Assembly (NCBI GenBank): GCA_004124465.1 | Contig: SCKS01000001.1 | Location: forward strand, 1-43,268 | From: Fidelibacterota bacterium | GTDB lineage: Bacteria; Fidelibacterota; Marinisomatia; Marinisomatales; S15-B10 | Reading direction: 5' to 3' | Length of the DNA stretch: 43,268 nt | Shown here: positions 3 to 43,268 of the stretch, piece by piece | How the letters are laid out: every line of letters starts with the position of its first letter | Position numbering within the stretch: position 1 is the stretch's first letter | Program-made: the position numbers and the translations under genes | Notes under the pieces: generated by a model | Told to the model about the DNA's origin: nothing | Databases searched by the model: none | What the model saw: only the letters and a program-made list of their open reading frames with translations

Positions 3-323
3 GAACCGGTGGAAGAATCAGCAGAAAAGGAGCCGGCAGTTGAGGAAGAGGCAGAAGAGGAAGCCGAAGAGGCCCCAGTAGAAGAAGAGACAGCTGAGGA
101 GCCTACTGAAGCCGAAGTAGCGGAGACTGAAGAAGAGACTACGGAAGAAGCTGTAGAAGAAGTTGCTGAAGAGGAGCCAGCAGCTGAAGAAGAAACTGCT
201 GAAGACGCGGGAGAAGAAGAGGAACAAGAGGGAGAAGCCGAACCAGAGTCTGAGGAAGAGGAAACCGCTGAAACTGAAAAAGCAGAATCGGAATCTGAAG
301 AAGAGAGTGAAAAAGAAAAGTAG
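3..323 (+). CDS. rpsP: Presumed 30S ribosomal protein S16, acidic C-terminal tail (5' partial)
   Basis: The reading frame is open from the window edge and ends at TAG 321-323, so only the 3' part of the gene is present. The visible 106 codons are almost entirely Glu, Ala, Thr, Pro and Ser, with about half Glu, and contain no recognisable domain. The identification as S16 rests on position: the next genes are a khpA relic, rimM, trmD and rplS, the classical rpsP-khpA-rimM-trmD-rplS order. S16 proteins of Bacteroidota-like lineages often carry low-complexity charged C-terminal tails. The DNA is a run of imperfect GAAGAAGAG-type repeats, so length variation by slippage or assembly error is possible. 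Without the N-terminal S16 domain in view, another acidic protein cannot be excluded. Confidence 0.55.
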   Translation, partial: EPVEESAEKEPAVEEEAEEEAEEAPVEEETAEEPTEAEVAETEEETTEEAVEEVAEEEPAAEEETAEDAGEEEEQEGEAEPESEEEETAETEKAESESEEESEKEK

Positions 324-324
324 T

Positions 325-411
325 CAGACAGGGAAGCGGATGAGGCAGCTGGCTGTGCATACAATAGGAGGCGGTAAGCGCGCCATGATGGAGATTATCG
401 AGGAAGACTAA
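325..411 (+). pseudogene. khpA: KhpA (KH-domain RNA-binding protein) C-terminal relic
   Basis: In the frame +1 to the preceding acidic gene, 28 codons up to TAA 409-411 read like the last helix and strand of a KhpA/YlqC KH domain, including GGGKRAMMEIIEED. Family members typically end with a GKR-hydrophobic-EIIE pattern. The roughly 45 N-terminal residues, with the first strands and most of the GxxG loop, are missing, and no start codon or ribosome binding site precedes the fragment. The frame stays open upstream to 163, but there it encodes only Lys-rich sequence produced by reading the GAA repeats out of phase. The position between rpsP and rimM is exactly where khpA normally lies. The stop overlaps the rimM start (TAATG). 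It is either a true deletion relic or the product of an assembly deletion or frameshift. Confidence 0.45.
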
Positions 412-908
412 TGGCGAAAAGAGTCAAACCTGCAGCAAAAGTTGTACAAGCAGTAGGGCTGGAGGGCGACGTGAAGGTTTACCCTCTTGATTCCCGGTTT
501 GAGGATTACGCCCAGGAGGACTCTTTAATTATTGGAGAGCATCCCGAAGCCACGGAGGATATCCGCCTTTCACCAGTGGCGAAATCGGGCAAACTGATTC
601 GCTACAGGGTAGACGGCAACGCCAGCCGGGAAGATGCCGAGAACCTGGTGGGTAAACTGATCTTTGCCCCAGCAGGTGAGGATGAGATCTTGCCGGAGGA
701 AGTTGTAGGCTTTCTGGTGATAACTACAGACGGTCAACCCGTGGGAATTCTCAGCGACATTATGCCCATGCCTGGGCAGGATGTCTACGCCATCGATTCG
801 GGAGGGAAGGAAATTCTTATCCCGGGGGTGCCGGAGATCATTCGGGAGATAGACTTTAATTCCGAGACCATTACCATCTTCCCCATGGAAGGACTTCTGG
901 ATCTATGA
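411..908 (+). CDS. rimM: Ribosome maturation factor RimM
   Basis: This 165-residue protein is close to the usual RimM length. RimM binds S19 in the 30S head and helps late maturation of the small subunit. The N-terminal half has the RimM beta-barrel pattern ([16 protein letters not shown] near residue 12, the equivalent of the GxxGxxGxxKV motif). The C-terminal half has the PRC-barrel signature ([19 protein letters not shown] and then [14 protein letters not shown]). The ATG overlaps the stop of the khpA relic by one base, and the 3' end overlaps trmD in an ATGA junction. It is part of the rpsP-rimM-trmD-rplS operon, so co-expression with the tRNA methylase and L19 is expected. Confidence 0.95.
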
Positions 909-1615
909 TGCAGATTTTTATCATTACACCGTTTCCCGCTATTCCCGAAGCTGTCATCGGCGAAAGTATTCTCCGCCGTGCCGGCGAAAAGGAGATTGTG
1001 GACTATCATATGATCGATCTCCGGGAGTTTACCGAAGGGAAGCATCGCCAGATCGACGATTACCCCTTCGGCGGCGGCACCGGCATGGTGATGCTGGCGG
1101 AGCCTATCCTGAAGGCCATGGATCGGGTGAGGGAGCTTTACAACGGTGATAAAGGACTGAGGGTCGTTTTCCCGTCTCCCCAGGCTAAGATTTTGTCGCA
1201 GGAAACTTCCCGGGATCTGTCCGAAGCGGACGGTATCGCCTTTATCTGCGGCCATTATAAAGGTATAGATGAACGGGTGAGAGAGACAGTGGTGACAGAT
1301 GAAATTTCCATCGGCGACTATGTGGTGACGGGTGGTGAGCTGCCGGCCATGGTGATCCTCGATTCGGTGGTGAGACTTATCCCAGGCGTTCTGGGTGATG
1401 AGGAATCCGCCAACACAGATTCATTTACGCATGATCTTTTAGATCATCCGCACTACACCCGGCCGGAGGAAGTGAAGGGGTTGAAAGTGCCGGAAGTGCT
1501 TATGAGCGGTCACCACGCCAATGTTGACGCCTGGCGTCAGGAACAGAGAGAATTGAGAACAAAAAAGAACAGACCTGATCTATGGGAACATTATCAGGAA
1601 GAATTATTGAAGTGA
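905..1615 (+). CDS. trmD: tRNA (guanine-37-N1)-methyltransferase TrmD
   Basis: TrmD uses S-adenosylmethionine to methylate G37 next to the anticodon of tRNAs reading CNN codons, preventing +1 frameshifting. The 236-residue length is normal. Visible family motifs are [12 protein letters not shown] (about residues 51-62), GHYKGIDER (116-124) and [11 protein letters not shown] (135-145), which form the SPOUT trefoil-knot cofactor site, and [16 protein letters not shown] (from about 172), which contains the catalytic Asp region. Two consecutive ATG codons stand at 905 and 908. The first forms an ATGA overlap with the rimM stop, and the second gives a protein one residue shorter. It is followed nine bases later by rplS. 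Confidence 0.97.
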
Positions 1616-40817: not shown

Positions 40818-42223
40818 GCCTCAAACTGTTTAATACACTTTCCGGGAAGCCTGAATCTTTCAAGCCACTGGATGACAAGACTGTTCGGATTTATTCGTGT
40901 GGGCCTACCGTTTATGATGTCCCTCATATAGGGAACTTCCGTGCCTTCCTTTTTTTCGATCTCGTGAAACGCTACCTCCGTTTTCTAGGTTACGAAGTCA
41001 ATCATGTAATGAACATTACGGATATAGATGACAAGATTATTGCAAGGTGCGGTGAAGAGGGGAAATCTCTTTCTGAACTGACAAACGAGTACCGCGCAGC
41101 TTTTGAAAAAGATGCCGTATCTCTCCGTATAGATTTACCTGATACCCTGCCTGCGGCTACCGATCACATTGATGACATGATTGATCTCATCAAACAGCTT
41201 ATTGACAAAGATTACGCATACCTTACAGATGATGGGTCTGTCTTTTTCAAGATTGGCTCGTTCCCGAATTATGGTAGGCTTTCCAATATTGATACCTCGC
41301 AACTCTCCAGCACTGAGCGGGTAACGGACGATGAATACGGCAAGGAAAATCCTCAGGACTTTGCCCTTTGGAAGGCATGGAAGGAGGAGGACGGAGAGAT
41401 CGAATGGGAGTCACCTTGGGGACGTGGCAGGCCCGGTTGGCATATAGAGTGTTCAGCCATGTCCATGAAATATCTTGGCGAGGAATTCGATATTCATTGC
41501 GGTGGTGTTGATCTCATTTTTCCTCACCATGAGAATGAGATTGCCCAAAGTGTCTGTGCTACTGACAAATTGTTTGTCAACTTTTGGCTGCATTGTGAAC
41601 ACCTATTAGTGAACGGAGCTAAAATGAGCAAATCGCTTCAGAATTTTTATACTATCACTGATCTGATAAACAGGGGATACACCGCTTCGGCCATTCGATA
41701 CCTGCTTACTTCTTCACACTACAGACATAAGGTAGATCTCACAGAAGAGCATCTTCTGGCGGCAAGTCAGGCTGTTAACCGGTTTCAGGATTTCAGACGC
41801 AGACTGGAAAAGCTTGCAACGAGTTCTTCTAGACATGAGGCTGATCTTCCTGTGTTGGATGAATTTAGGAAAGCGATGAATAACGATCTGAATATAGCTA
41901 AAGCCATGGGAAAAGTTTTCGACTGGATAAGAGAAGTAAATAGAAAGATTGATTCGAATGAACTGACAACTGAGGAAGCCGGTAGTTTTATTGAGGTGTT
42001 AGACAAAATTGATAGTGTAATCGCTGTCGTTAGTGATGACAAACCGGAAATCACTGACGAAGAGGCGACAATGATCGATGAGAGGGAAAAGGCCCGACAA
42101 GAGAAGAACTGGTCCAGGGCTGATGAGATCAGAGACTATTTTCGATCCAGAGGTTTTGAGCTTGAAGATACGCCTGATGGGACCATTTTAAAGCGTTCAA
42201 AAGAGGGATCAGATAAGTTGTAA
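40814..42223 (+). CDS. cysS: Cysteinyl-tRNA synthetase
   Basis: CysS charges tRNA(Cys). The 469 residues have the class I signature PHIGN (HIGH-type, about residues 37-41) beside YSCGPTVYD with the zinc-binding Cys, HIECSAMSMKYLGEEFDIHCGGVDLIFPHHENEIAQS (in part, with the remaining zinc ligands), and AKMSKSLQNF with KMSKS. A C-terminal helical domain follows. The start is TTG 40814 in a TTGA overlap with the NusG-like gene. No good Shine-Dalgarno sequence is seen, which fits translational coupling. It ends the long co-directional block, and an AT-rich gap follows. Confidence 0.97.
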   Translation: MSLKLFNTLSGKPESFKPLDDKTVRIYSCGPTVYDVPHIGNFRAFLFFDLVKRYLRFLGYEVNHVMNITDIDDKIIARCGEEGKSLSELTNEYRAAFEKDAVSLRIDLPDTLPAATDHIDDMIDLIKQLIDKDYAYLTDDGSVFFKIGSFPNYGRLSNIDTSQLSSTERVTDDEYGKENPQDFALWKAWKEEDGEIEWESPWGRGRPGWHIECSAMSMKYLGEEFDIHCGGVDLIFPHHENEIAQSVCATDKLFVNFWLHCEHLLVNGAKMSKSLQNFYTITDLINRGYTASAIRYLLTSSHYRHKVDLTEEHLLAASQAVNRFQDFRRRLEKLATSSSRHEADLPVLDEFRKAMNNDLNIAKAMGKVFDWIREVNRKIDSNELTTEEAGSFIEVLDKIDSVIAVVSDDKPEITDEEATMIDEREKARQEKNWSRADEIRDYFRSRGFELEDTPDGTILKRSKEGSDKL

Positions 42224-42292
42224 AAAATCCCACTTTCTCTTCTACAAATATATTTGTTTTAAAATACTTTTAAGTTAATTTTCGGGGCTGTG
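42224..42292 (+). promoter_or_regulatory. AT-rich region between cysS and tRNA operon, candidate terminator and promoter
   Basis: An AT-rich stretch contains the perfect palindrome ACAAATATATTTGT (42244-42257) followed by TTT, a weak AT-only hairpin that may terminate cysS transcripts. TTGTTT (42254-42259) and TAATTT (42276-42281), 16 bases apart, could be promoter hexamers for the tRNA-tuf unit. They are followed by a GC-rich TCGGGGC, as in stringently controlled promoters. This is a weak pattern match. Confidence 0.22.
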
Positions 42293-42343
42293 CGAAATGC
42301 GTACCATCGAAGATTACTTACCTCCAACTGCCCATCTGATGTG

Positions 42344-42386
42344 GTTCAGGTGGCGGAGCTGTATTATGCAGGTGTGCCTCAAGATT
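42344..42386 (+). other. Possible tRNA-Leu 5'-half relic
   Basis: The stretch contains GGTGGCGGAGCTG, a few further bases and then ATGC, followed by GTGCCTCAAG. This resembles the D-arm and anticodon-loop region of leucine tRNAs. No acceptor or T-arm partner exists before tRNA-Thr begins at 42389. It could be a chance likeness or a leftover fragment. Confidence 0.2.
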
Positions 42387-42388
42387 TA

Positions 42389-42461
42389 GCCACCGTAGCT
42401 CAGTTGGTAGAGCAGCTGATTTGTAATCAGCCGGTCGGGGGTTCAAGTCCCTCCGGTGGCT
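42389..42461 (+). tRNA. tRNA-Thr (anticodon UGU)
   Basis: A 73-base cloverleaf. Acceptor GCCACCG pairs with CGGTGGC, discriminator T. D-arm GTAGCTCAGTTGGTAGAGC. Anticodon stem GCTGA/TCAGC with loop TTTGTAA, giving anticodon TGT, reading ACA and related Thr codons. T-arm GGGGGTTCAAGTCCCTC. No CCA is encoded. It is the first of four tRNAs, equivalent in place to E. coli thrU. Confidence 0.97.
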
Positions 42462-42477
42462 CGTATTGTTTCGAGTA

Positions 42478-42553
42478 GGATATCTTCGGCGCGAGAGTCA
42501 GTAATAGGGTTCACCTGGAGCGAGATCGTGGGTTCAAATCCATCTGTTCAAGT
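42478..42553 (+). pseudogene. Decayed tRNA-Tyr copy (tRNA pseudogene)
   Basis: GGATATCT at 42478-42485 recurs at 42594-42601, immediately before the real tRNA-Tyr. A 15-base exact match, GGTTCAAATCCATCT (42531-42545), equals the T-arm of tRNA-Tyr at 42663-42677. AGAGT of the D-arm is also shared. The anticodon arm and acceptor pairing are lost, so no cloverleaf can form. The element therefore looks like a degenerate tandem duplicate of the Tyr gene. Confidence 0.5.
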
Positions 42554-42601
42554 TGTTAATAATATGCAAAATCGTAATATGAGAGACCCTCATGGATATC
42601 T

Positions 42602-42684
42602 GGGGAGATGGCAGAGTGGTCTAATGCACCAGACTGTAAATCTGGCGGCGAAAGCCTTCGGTGGTTCAAATCCATCTCTCCCCA
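42602..42684 (+). tRNA. tRNA-Tyr (anticodon GUA)
   Basis: An 83-base class II tRNA. Acceptor GGGGAGA pairs with TCTCCCC, discriminator A. The anticodon stem CCAGA/TCTGG holds loop CTGTAAA with anticodon GTA. A long variable arm (CGGCGAAAGCCTTCG region) is typical of bacterial tRNA-Tyr, and the T-arm is GGTGGTTCAAATCCATC. No CCA is encoded. It corresponds in position to tyrU. Confidence 0.97.
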
Positions 42685-42737
42685 CAGCCAGCGAAAGCAG
42701 CCAGAACAACCGGATGATTCATGATGGTAACAACTAT

Positions 42738-42810
42738 GCGGTGGTAGCTCAGTTGGTAGAGCATCAGCCTTCCAAGCTGAGGGTCGCGGGTTCGATCCCC
42801 GTCCGCCGCT
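42738..42810 (+). tRNA. tRNA-Gly (anticodon UCC)
   Basis: A 73-base cloverleaf. Acceptor GCGGTGG pairs with CCGCCGC (one T-G wobble), discriminator T. Anticodon stem TCAGC/GCTGA with loop CTTCCAA gives anticodon TCC, reading GGA and GGG. T-arm GCGGGTTCGATCCCCGT. It corresponds in position to glyT. Confidence 0.97.
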
Positions 42811-42854
42811 CAGATTCGTCTGGCTGTAGCACTTGGGCAAACACCCCACCAGTT

Positions 42855-42927
<73 letters not shown>

Positions 42928-42964
42928 CATTAATGATCTGTCAGTCAACATAGGAGATTTTCTC

Positions 42965-43268
42965 ATGGCAAAGGAGAAATTTGACAGGACTAAACCCCAC
43001 CTTAACGTGGGCACCATCGGTCACGTAGATCACGGTAAGACGACCCTCACCGCGGCCATAACAATGACATTATCCAAGCGTGGCTTGAGTGAGATCCGTT
43101 CTTTTGACAGTATTGACAACGCTCCAGAGGAGCGGGAGCGAGGTATTACCATTCAGACAGCACACGTTGAGTATGAGAGTGAGAACCGTCACTATGCACA
43201 CATAGACTGTCCCGGTCACGCTGACTATATCAAGAACATGATTACAGGTGCGGCCCAGATGGACGGCG
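42965..43268 (+). CDS. tuf: Elongation factor Tu (3' partial)
   Basis: EF-Tu delivers aminoacyl-tRNAs to the ribosome. Only the first 101 codons are present; the gene runs off the window. AGGAG at 42952-42956 precedes the ATG by 8 bases. Visible segments are [25 protein letters not shown] with the P-loop (in part, about residues 3-27), [13 protein letters not shown] (switch I), and [21 protein letters not shown] with the G3 motif. The tRNA-tuf arrangement suggests co-transcription with processing of the four tRNAs. Confidence 0.98.

Follow-up and report, generated by a model that had tools for sequence, protein, structure and literature searches.

A probable recent deletion within khpA at the rpsP–rimM locus of a Fidelibacterota bacterium

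The locus described here has its closest known counterpart in the gene order rpsP–khpA–rimM–trmD, of which KhpA, a small protein that binds RNA, is the product of the second gene. Small deletions between short direct repeats are an ordinary way in which bacterial pseudogenes form. KhpA forms an RNA-binding pair with KhpB (Jag), a protein with a KH and an R3H domain. A GxxG loop and a dimer helix (α3) are features of the S. pneumoniae KhpA, as set out in part of its published account (PMC6403258), and a KhpA profile run against solved structures gave two matches, one of which is named KhpA (7xqc). Among the KhpA papers listed, no title or abstract opening was found to concern khpA loss at the rpsP–rimM locus.

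The window, that is the whole stretch of DNA analysed, is the complete contig C123 of 43,268 bp. It belongs to a genome (G000) assembled to 1.48 Mb in 147 contigs with an estimated completeness of 77%. The closest relative with the locus is a member of the same genus (G001; RimM 94% and TrmD 94% identical), in which rpsP, khpA, rimM and trmD follow one another, all intact. The alignment of window positions 369–42012 with G001 spans 41,678 columns and has 88% identity. It contains 22 indels, every one of 9 nt or less, which demonstrates that the contig is not riddled with deletions; the alignment ends at 42012 and the final 1,256 bases (42013–43268) lie outside the comparison. A second congener (G002) was considered as a further witness. 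Neither the S16 domain, khpA, rimM and trmD nor a close copy of the downstream transporter was found in its assembly, and with the whole locus region not found G002 is uninformative on khpA.

The rpsP–rimM interval and the khpA remnant

The contig starts inside the acidic tail of rpsP, the stop of which lies at 321–323. Within the tail the alignment with G001 has gaps of 21, 24 and 75 nt, and the S16 domain gave no match in the G000 assembly. A long Glu/Ala-rich acidic C-terminal tail of bS16 is seen order-wide (frames of 140–425 aa in 54 matches; L071, L122–L136), and the contigs of G000 and G003 both end inside it. The features of the locus are as follows.

3–323, forward strand: 3' end of rpsP (bS16) with the acidic Glu/Ala-rich C-terminal tail, an open reading frame aligned with the rpsP tail of G001
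324–365, forward strand: conserved rpsP–khpA intergenic leader, not khpA coding, with 34 of 42 bases as in the G001 leader
340–411, forward strand: 23-codon frame MRQLAVHTIGGGKRAMMEIIEED, a fusion of leader and remnant that ends on the rimM start; read from the sequence, putatively translated
366–371, forward strand: AGGAGG, the former khpA Shine–Dalgarno sequence (AGGAGGC to 372), from the alignment with G001
369–373, forward strand: deletion junction with a shared 4-nt AGGC at 369–372; 205 nt (G001 C58:32291-32495) missing
370–411, forward strand: khpA remnant, the last 13 codons GGKRAMMEIIEED and the stop TAA, from comparison with G001 KhpA
400–406, forward strand: GAGGAAG, within the khpA remnant and likely serving rimM as its ribosome-binding site; G001, G003 and G007 have GAGGA at the corresponding position
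411–908, forward strand: rimM, intact, 165 aa; PF01782 over cut-off, 94% identical to G001
905–1615, forward strand: trmD, intact, 236 aa, with homologues in 9 of the 10 family genomes, its own included; presumably trmD, from its position in the locus and the family

From the rpsP stop to the rimM start the window measures 87 nt and G001 291 nt, and the alignment of this interval contains one large gap, of 205 nt. Counted on the intact 81-codon gene of G001, the missing bases are codons 1–67 of khpA, more than four-fifths of the gene, and 4 nt of the leader. In G001 the AGGAGG sits 5 nt upstream of the khpA ATG. In the window this ATG is deleted and the Shine–Dalgarno sequence is retained, now joined to the last 13 khpA codons, so that no khpA start codon of its own follows it. 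On the 3' side of the junction, positions 370–411 read GGC GGT AAG CGC GCC ATG ATG GAG ATT ATC GAG GAA GAC TAA; as AGGC is common to both borders, the first GGC can be assigned to either side. The window carries one base more than G001 near the khpA stop (position 405), and this stop (TAA, 409–411) overlaps the rimM ATG at 411 (TAATG).

All 12 comparable residues of the remnant are identical to G001 KhpA, as are 29 of 36 bases. Judged by this residual identity and by the orthologous position between rpsP and rimM, the stretch is truly what is left of khpA in its usual place, and we assign it to the final strand of KhpA and its turn. The GxxG loop and α3 both fall within the deleted 205 nt. PF13083 (KH_KhpA-B) does not exceed its cut-off and no Pfam family was returned for window 325–408, as is expected for so short a remnant.

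The original prediction had described 28 KhpA-like codons directly after the acidic gene's stop, without a start, as the last helix and strand of a protein lacking about 45 residues. The frame from 325 to 408 does end in GGKRAMMEIIEED before the stop at 409–411, but only 13 codons (370–408) come from khpA, the first 15 being rpsP–khpA leader and Shine–Dalgarno sequence. The strand stands. The helix, QTGKRMRQLAVHTI (ending QLAVHTI), does not: window 324–365 aligns with the G001 leader, and what had been read as a KhpA helix is leader DNA in another frame. The loss itself is larger than had been supposed, as set out above, and khpA's own ATG is indeed gone, although the frame holds other ATGs at 340, 385 and 388. 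A Pfam search of the 28 residues gave no KH similarity; yet the last 13 codons are recognizable as khpA when set against G001. That the 28 codons encode a functional shortened KhpA is extremely improbable. The frame is open, is the one in which khpA truly ends and has an ATG at 340, but half of its codons are leader rather than khpA, it lacks the GxxG loop and α3, and it matches no Pfam family.

A relocated khpA elsewhere in G000 was considered and rejected for the assembly, which is 77% complete; a second copy might lie in the missing part. In the assembly PF13083 has no match at E ≤ 0.001 and a lineage khpA profile of 16 rows has none at E ≤ 10. At E ≤ 1 PF13083 finds a single match (E 0.0014, profile positions 32–56) in a 524-aa frame that is probably PNPase. 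The reading of a khpA remnant at the canonical place is supported, and the genome-wide profile search that had been proposed found no other copy in the assembly.

Origin of the deletion and the remaining codons

The most likely reading, which we regard as probable, is that khpA was inactivated by a recent slippage deletion; otherwise the junction is an artefact. On this reading 205 nt would have been lost between short direct repeats, one copy of AGGC lying in the khpA Shine–Dalgarno sequence and the other where GGC codons encode part of the C-terminal GGKR, in an event presumably of the replication-slippage type. The start codon is gone and so are 67 of 81 codons, among them those for the GxxG loop and α3, and the KH domain could no longer form. 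The old 5' leader would be left, along with the last 13 codons, which overlap the rimM start and carry what is probably the ribosome-binding site of rimM; keeping them would let rimM be translated. Sharing of at least 4 nt is found at 1.7% of 45,048 same-length position pairs in G001 (about 1 in 59), so that the microhomology is a weak hint of slippage. Over 12 remnant codons there are 7 base differences from G001, each of them a synonymous transition. Had the codons been neutral since the split of G000 and G001, the chance of 7 out of 7 synonymous differences would be 7.5e-6, or 1.3e-4 when transitions only are considered, and the exclusively synonymous pattern means that the loss is either recent or artefactual.

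An artefact could take the form of an amplification chimera, with a template switch at AGGC, or of a junction from a low-abundance strain, the organism's own khpA being intact. This is a less probable explanation that nevertheless deserves some weight, since some 370 nt separate the junction from the contig end and it sits beside the repeat-rich rpsP tail in which the contig stops. Large indels relative to G001 are confined to the rpsP tail and khpA, adjoining that end. The assembly is in 147 contigs and 77% complete, khpA is intact in the congener G001, and G003 also breaks in the rpsP tail, with rpsP and khpA on two contigs. The remnant is without a trace of decay, a purity that recent origin and artefact would explain equally. 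Against this, the flanks are joined by no exact repeat longer than 7 nt, the next 41.6 kb contain no indel above 9 nt relative to G001, and there are further khpA losses within the same family (see below). An assembly collapse through the GAA repeat, which had been suggested as an alternative, was examined and rejected: the end of the rpsP tail and the leader are intact, the breakpoints lie outside the GAA-rich tail and share only 4 nt, and a 7-nt repeat, the longest exact one between the two flanks, is too short for short-read assembler merging or k-mer collapse. The intact khpA of the relatives proves the former presence of the gene, not its presence today. We infer that the deletion is present in the organism and not just in the library, and the mechanism looks like ordinary bacterial gene decay. 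Should the deletion be real, this lineage would seem able to do without KhpA.

The GAGGAAG within the remnant lies 4 nt before the rimM ATG, and the 3' end of khpA presumably still serves rimM translation. Of the in-frame ATGs, that at 340 opens the 23 codons and that at 385 gives MMEIIEED, and a frame from either could couple its translation to that of rimM. It is a further step to suppose that the remnant is retained by selection as a leader peptide or translational coupler controlling rimM, and we consider this improbable. The in-frame ATGs and the stop overlapping the rimM ATG would suit such an element, as would the GAGGA kept upstream of rimM in G001, G003 and G007, the purely synonymous changes of the remnant and a possible start at the place of 340 in four genomes (ATG in G000, GTG in G001 and G007, TTG in G003). 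However, the AGGAGG stands 13 nt upstream of the ATG at 385, a long spacing, intact khpA already had the overlap with rimM, which the remnant merely keeps, and G005 has rimM without any such element. If the deletion is recent, the synonymous pattern is mostly older than it. In G001, G007 and G003 the leader frame continues out of phase across the khpA start, and the fusion of leader and remnant is thus a by-product of the deletion.

The leader itself (window 340–369) shows a possible start and a conserved xR-LA reading in G000, G001, G003 and G007; this is perhaps an upstream small frame, perhaps an RNA feature.

khpA and KhpB across the family and order

The 10 family genomes include five with a full-length khpA match (G001, G003, G004, G006 and G007). 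The other five comprise the remnant of G000, an in-frame deletion in G009, G002 with its region not found, and G005 and G008, from which khpA is absent. In the latter two (genus g4) rpsP is followed directly by rimM (L077:2438-3553; L078:1702-2818), and this is a separate loss. The G009 gene (L076:1573-1740, contig C85) has lost 66 nt, or 22 codons, in frame. In G006 the lost stretch is bordered by CGGTAAGCGCG and CGGCAAGCGCG, near-identical CGGYAAGCGCG repeats that share 7 nt exactly, a length reached by 57 of 17,247 position pairs. The deletion takes the latter part of the GxxG loop, from its middle on, together with the helix after it and leaves a 55-aa frame open, the retained codons of which differ from G006 by 18 synonymous and 3 nonsynonymous changes. 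The family thus supplies close pairs with khpA intact in one member and not in the other (G000/G001 and G009/G006).

Other departures from the usual arrangement were observed. The khpA of G003 starts with ATA where G007 has ATG, behind a weaker Shine–Dalgarno sequence (AGGAGT; L079, C4, reverse strand, 43246); as the ATA lies 108 bases from the contig end, this could be a decaying copy or an edge error. In G006, G004, G009, G011 and G024 (L074, L075, L076, L127 and L128) rimM is missing between khpA and trmD, and PF01782 (RimM) has no match elsewhere in these five genomes at E ≤ 0.1. In G053 (L123 1733-2992) a 419-aa open reading frame stands between rpsP and trmD in place of khpA and rimM.

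Of the order's 130 genomes, 84 have a khpA match at E ≤ 1e-5 and 46 have none, counts of absence that are weak evidence where genomes are incomplete. Full length or nearly so are 83 of the 84 matches (2 of the 83 begin 5 bases or less from a contig start), and the one internally cut match is that of G009, so that internal khpA deletions are rare outside the family. Genus g19, whose genomes are reduced, has at least 16 genomes without khpA and three with it (G066, G069 and G074). In five of its members in which the interval is assembled (G033, G039, G050, G056 and G059) trmD comes after rpsP, and any frame between the two is shorter than 60 aa.

The original prediction also implied that a KhpA–KhpB partnership had been lost. 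The R3H domain (PF01424) exceeds its cut-off in none of 61 genomes of the order, G000 included and many of them incomplete, so that no KhpB was detected in the genome and a broken pair is unlikely. The sole R3H match at E ≤ 0.1 is sub-threshold (G039, E 0.0975, 13.2 bits), whereas 8 of 14 control genomes were positive, 6 of them over cut-off. Nor does any of the 44 PF13083 matches listed as over cut-off resemble KhpB, as their frames are all of 101 aa or less. Going by these profile searches, KhpB seems to be missing from an order in which KhpA is common, and with the R3H domain undetected the partnership is probably not what is at stake.

It is tentatively proposed that, in an order without detected KhpB, khpA is under relaxed selection and has disappeared several times over (in G000, genus g4 and G009 and in at least 16 genomes of g19). 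Some of these deletions would have made use of the repeated GGC/GGT-AAG codons in the gene's KH motif, and its 3' codons may survive solely as a translation signal for rimM. If this were true, the lineage would provide a series of natural knock-outs of KhpA in the absence of KhpB.

Comparison with known systems

The remnant occupies the same place and strand in the rpsP–khpA–rimM–trmD order as the khpA of G001 and has the same C-terminal sequence. Its stop overlaps the rimM start, as does the khpA stop in G003 and G007. It differs from KhpA in lacking the start, 67 of the 81 codons, the GxxG loop and α3, and cannot be a KH domain. The khpA of G009 resembles it as a deletion within the family whose 3' border falls in the same GGGKR codons, between short repeats, but there the deletion is in frame, the start is kept, the 55-aa frame is open and exceeds the PF13083 cut-off, and RimM was not found in G009. 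Set beside ordinary bacterial pseudogene formation, the G000 junction likewise has a short repeat and leaves the flanking genes untouched, with no notable difference.
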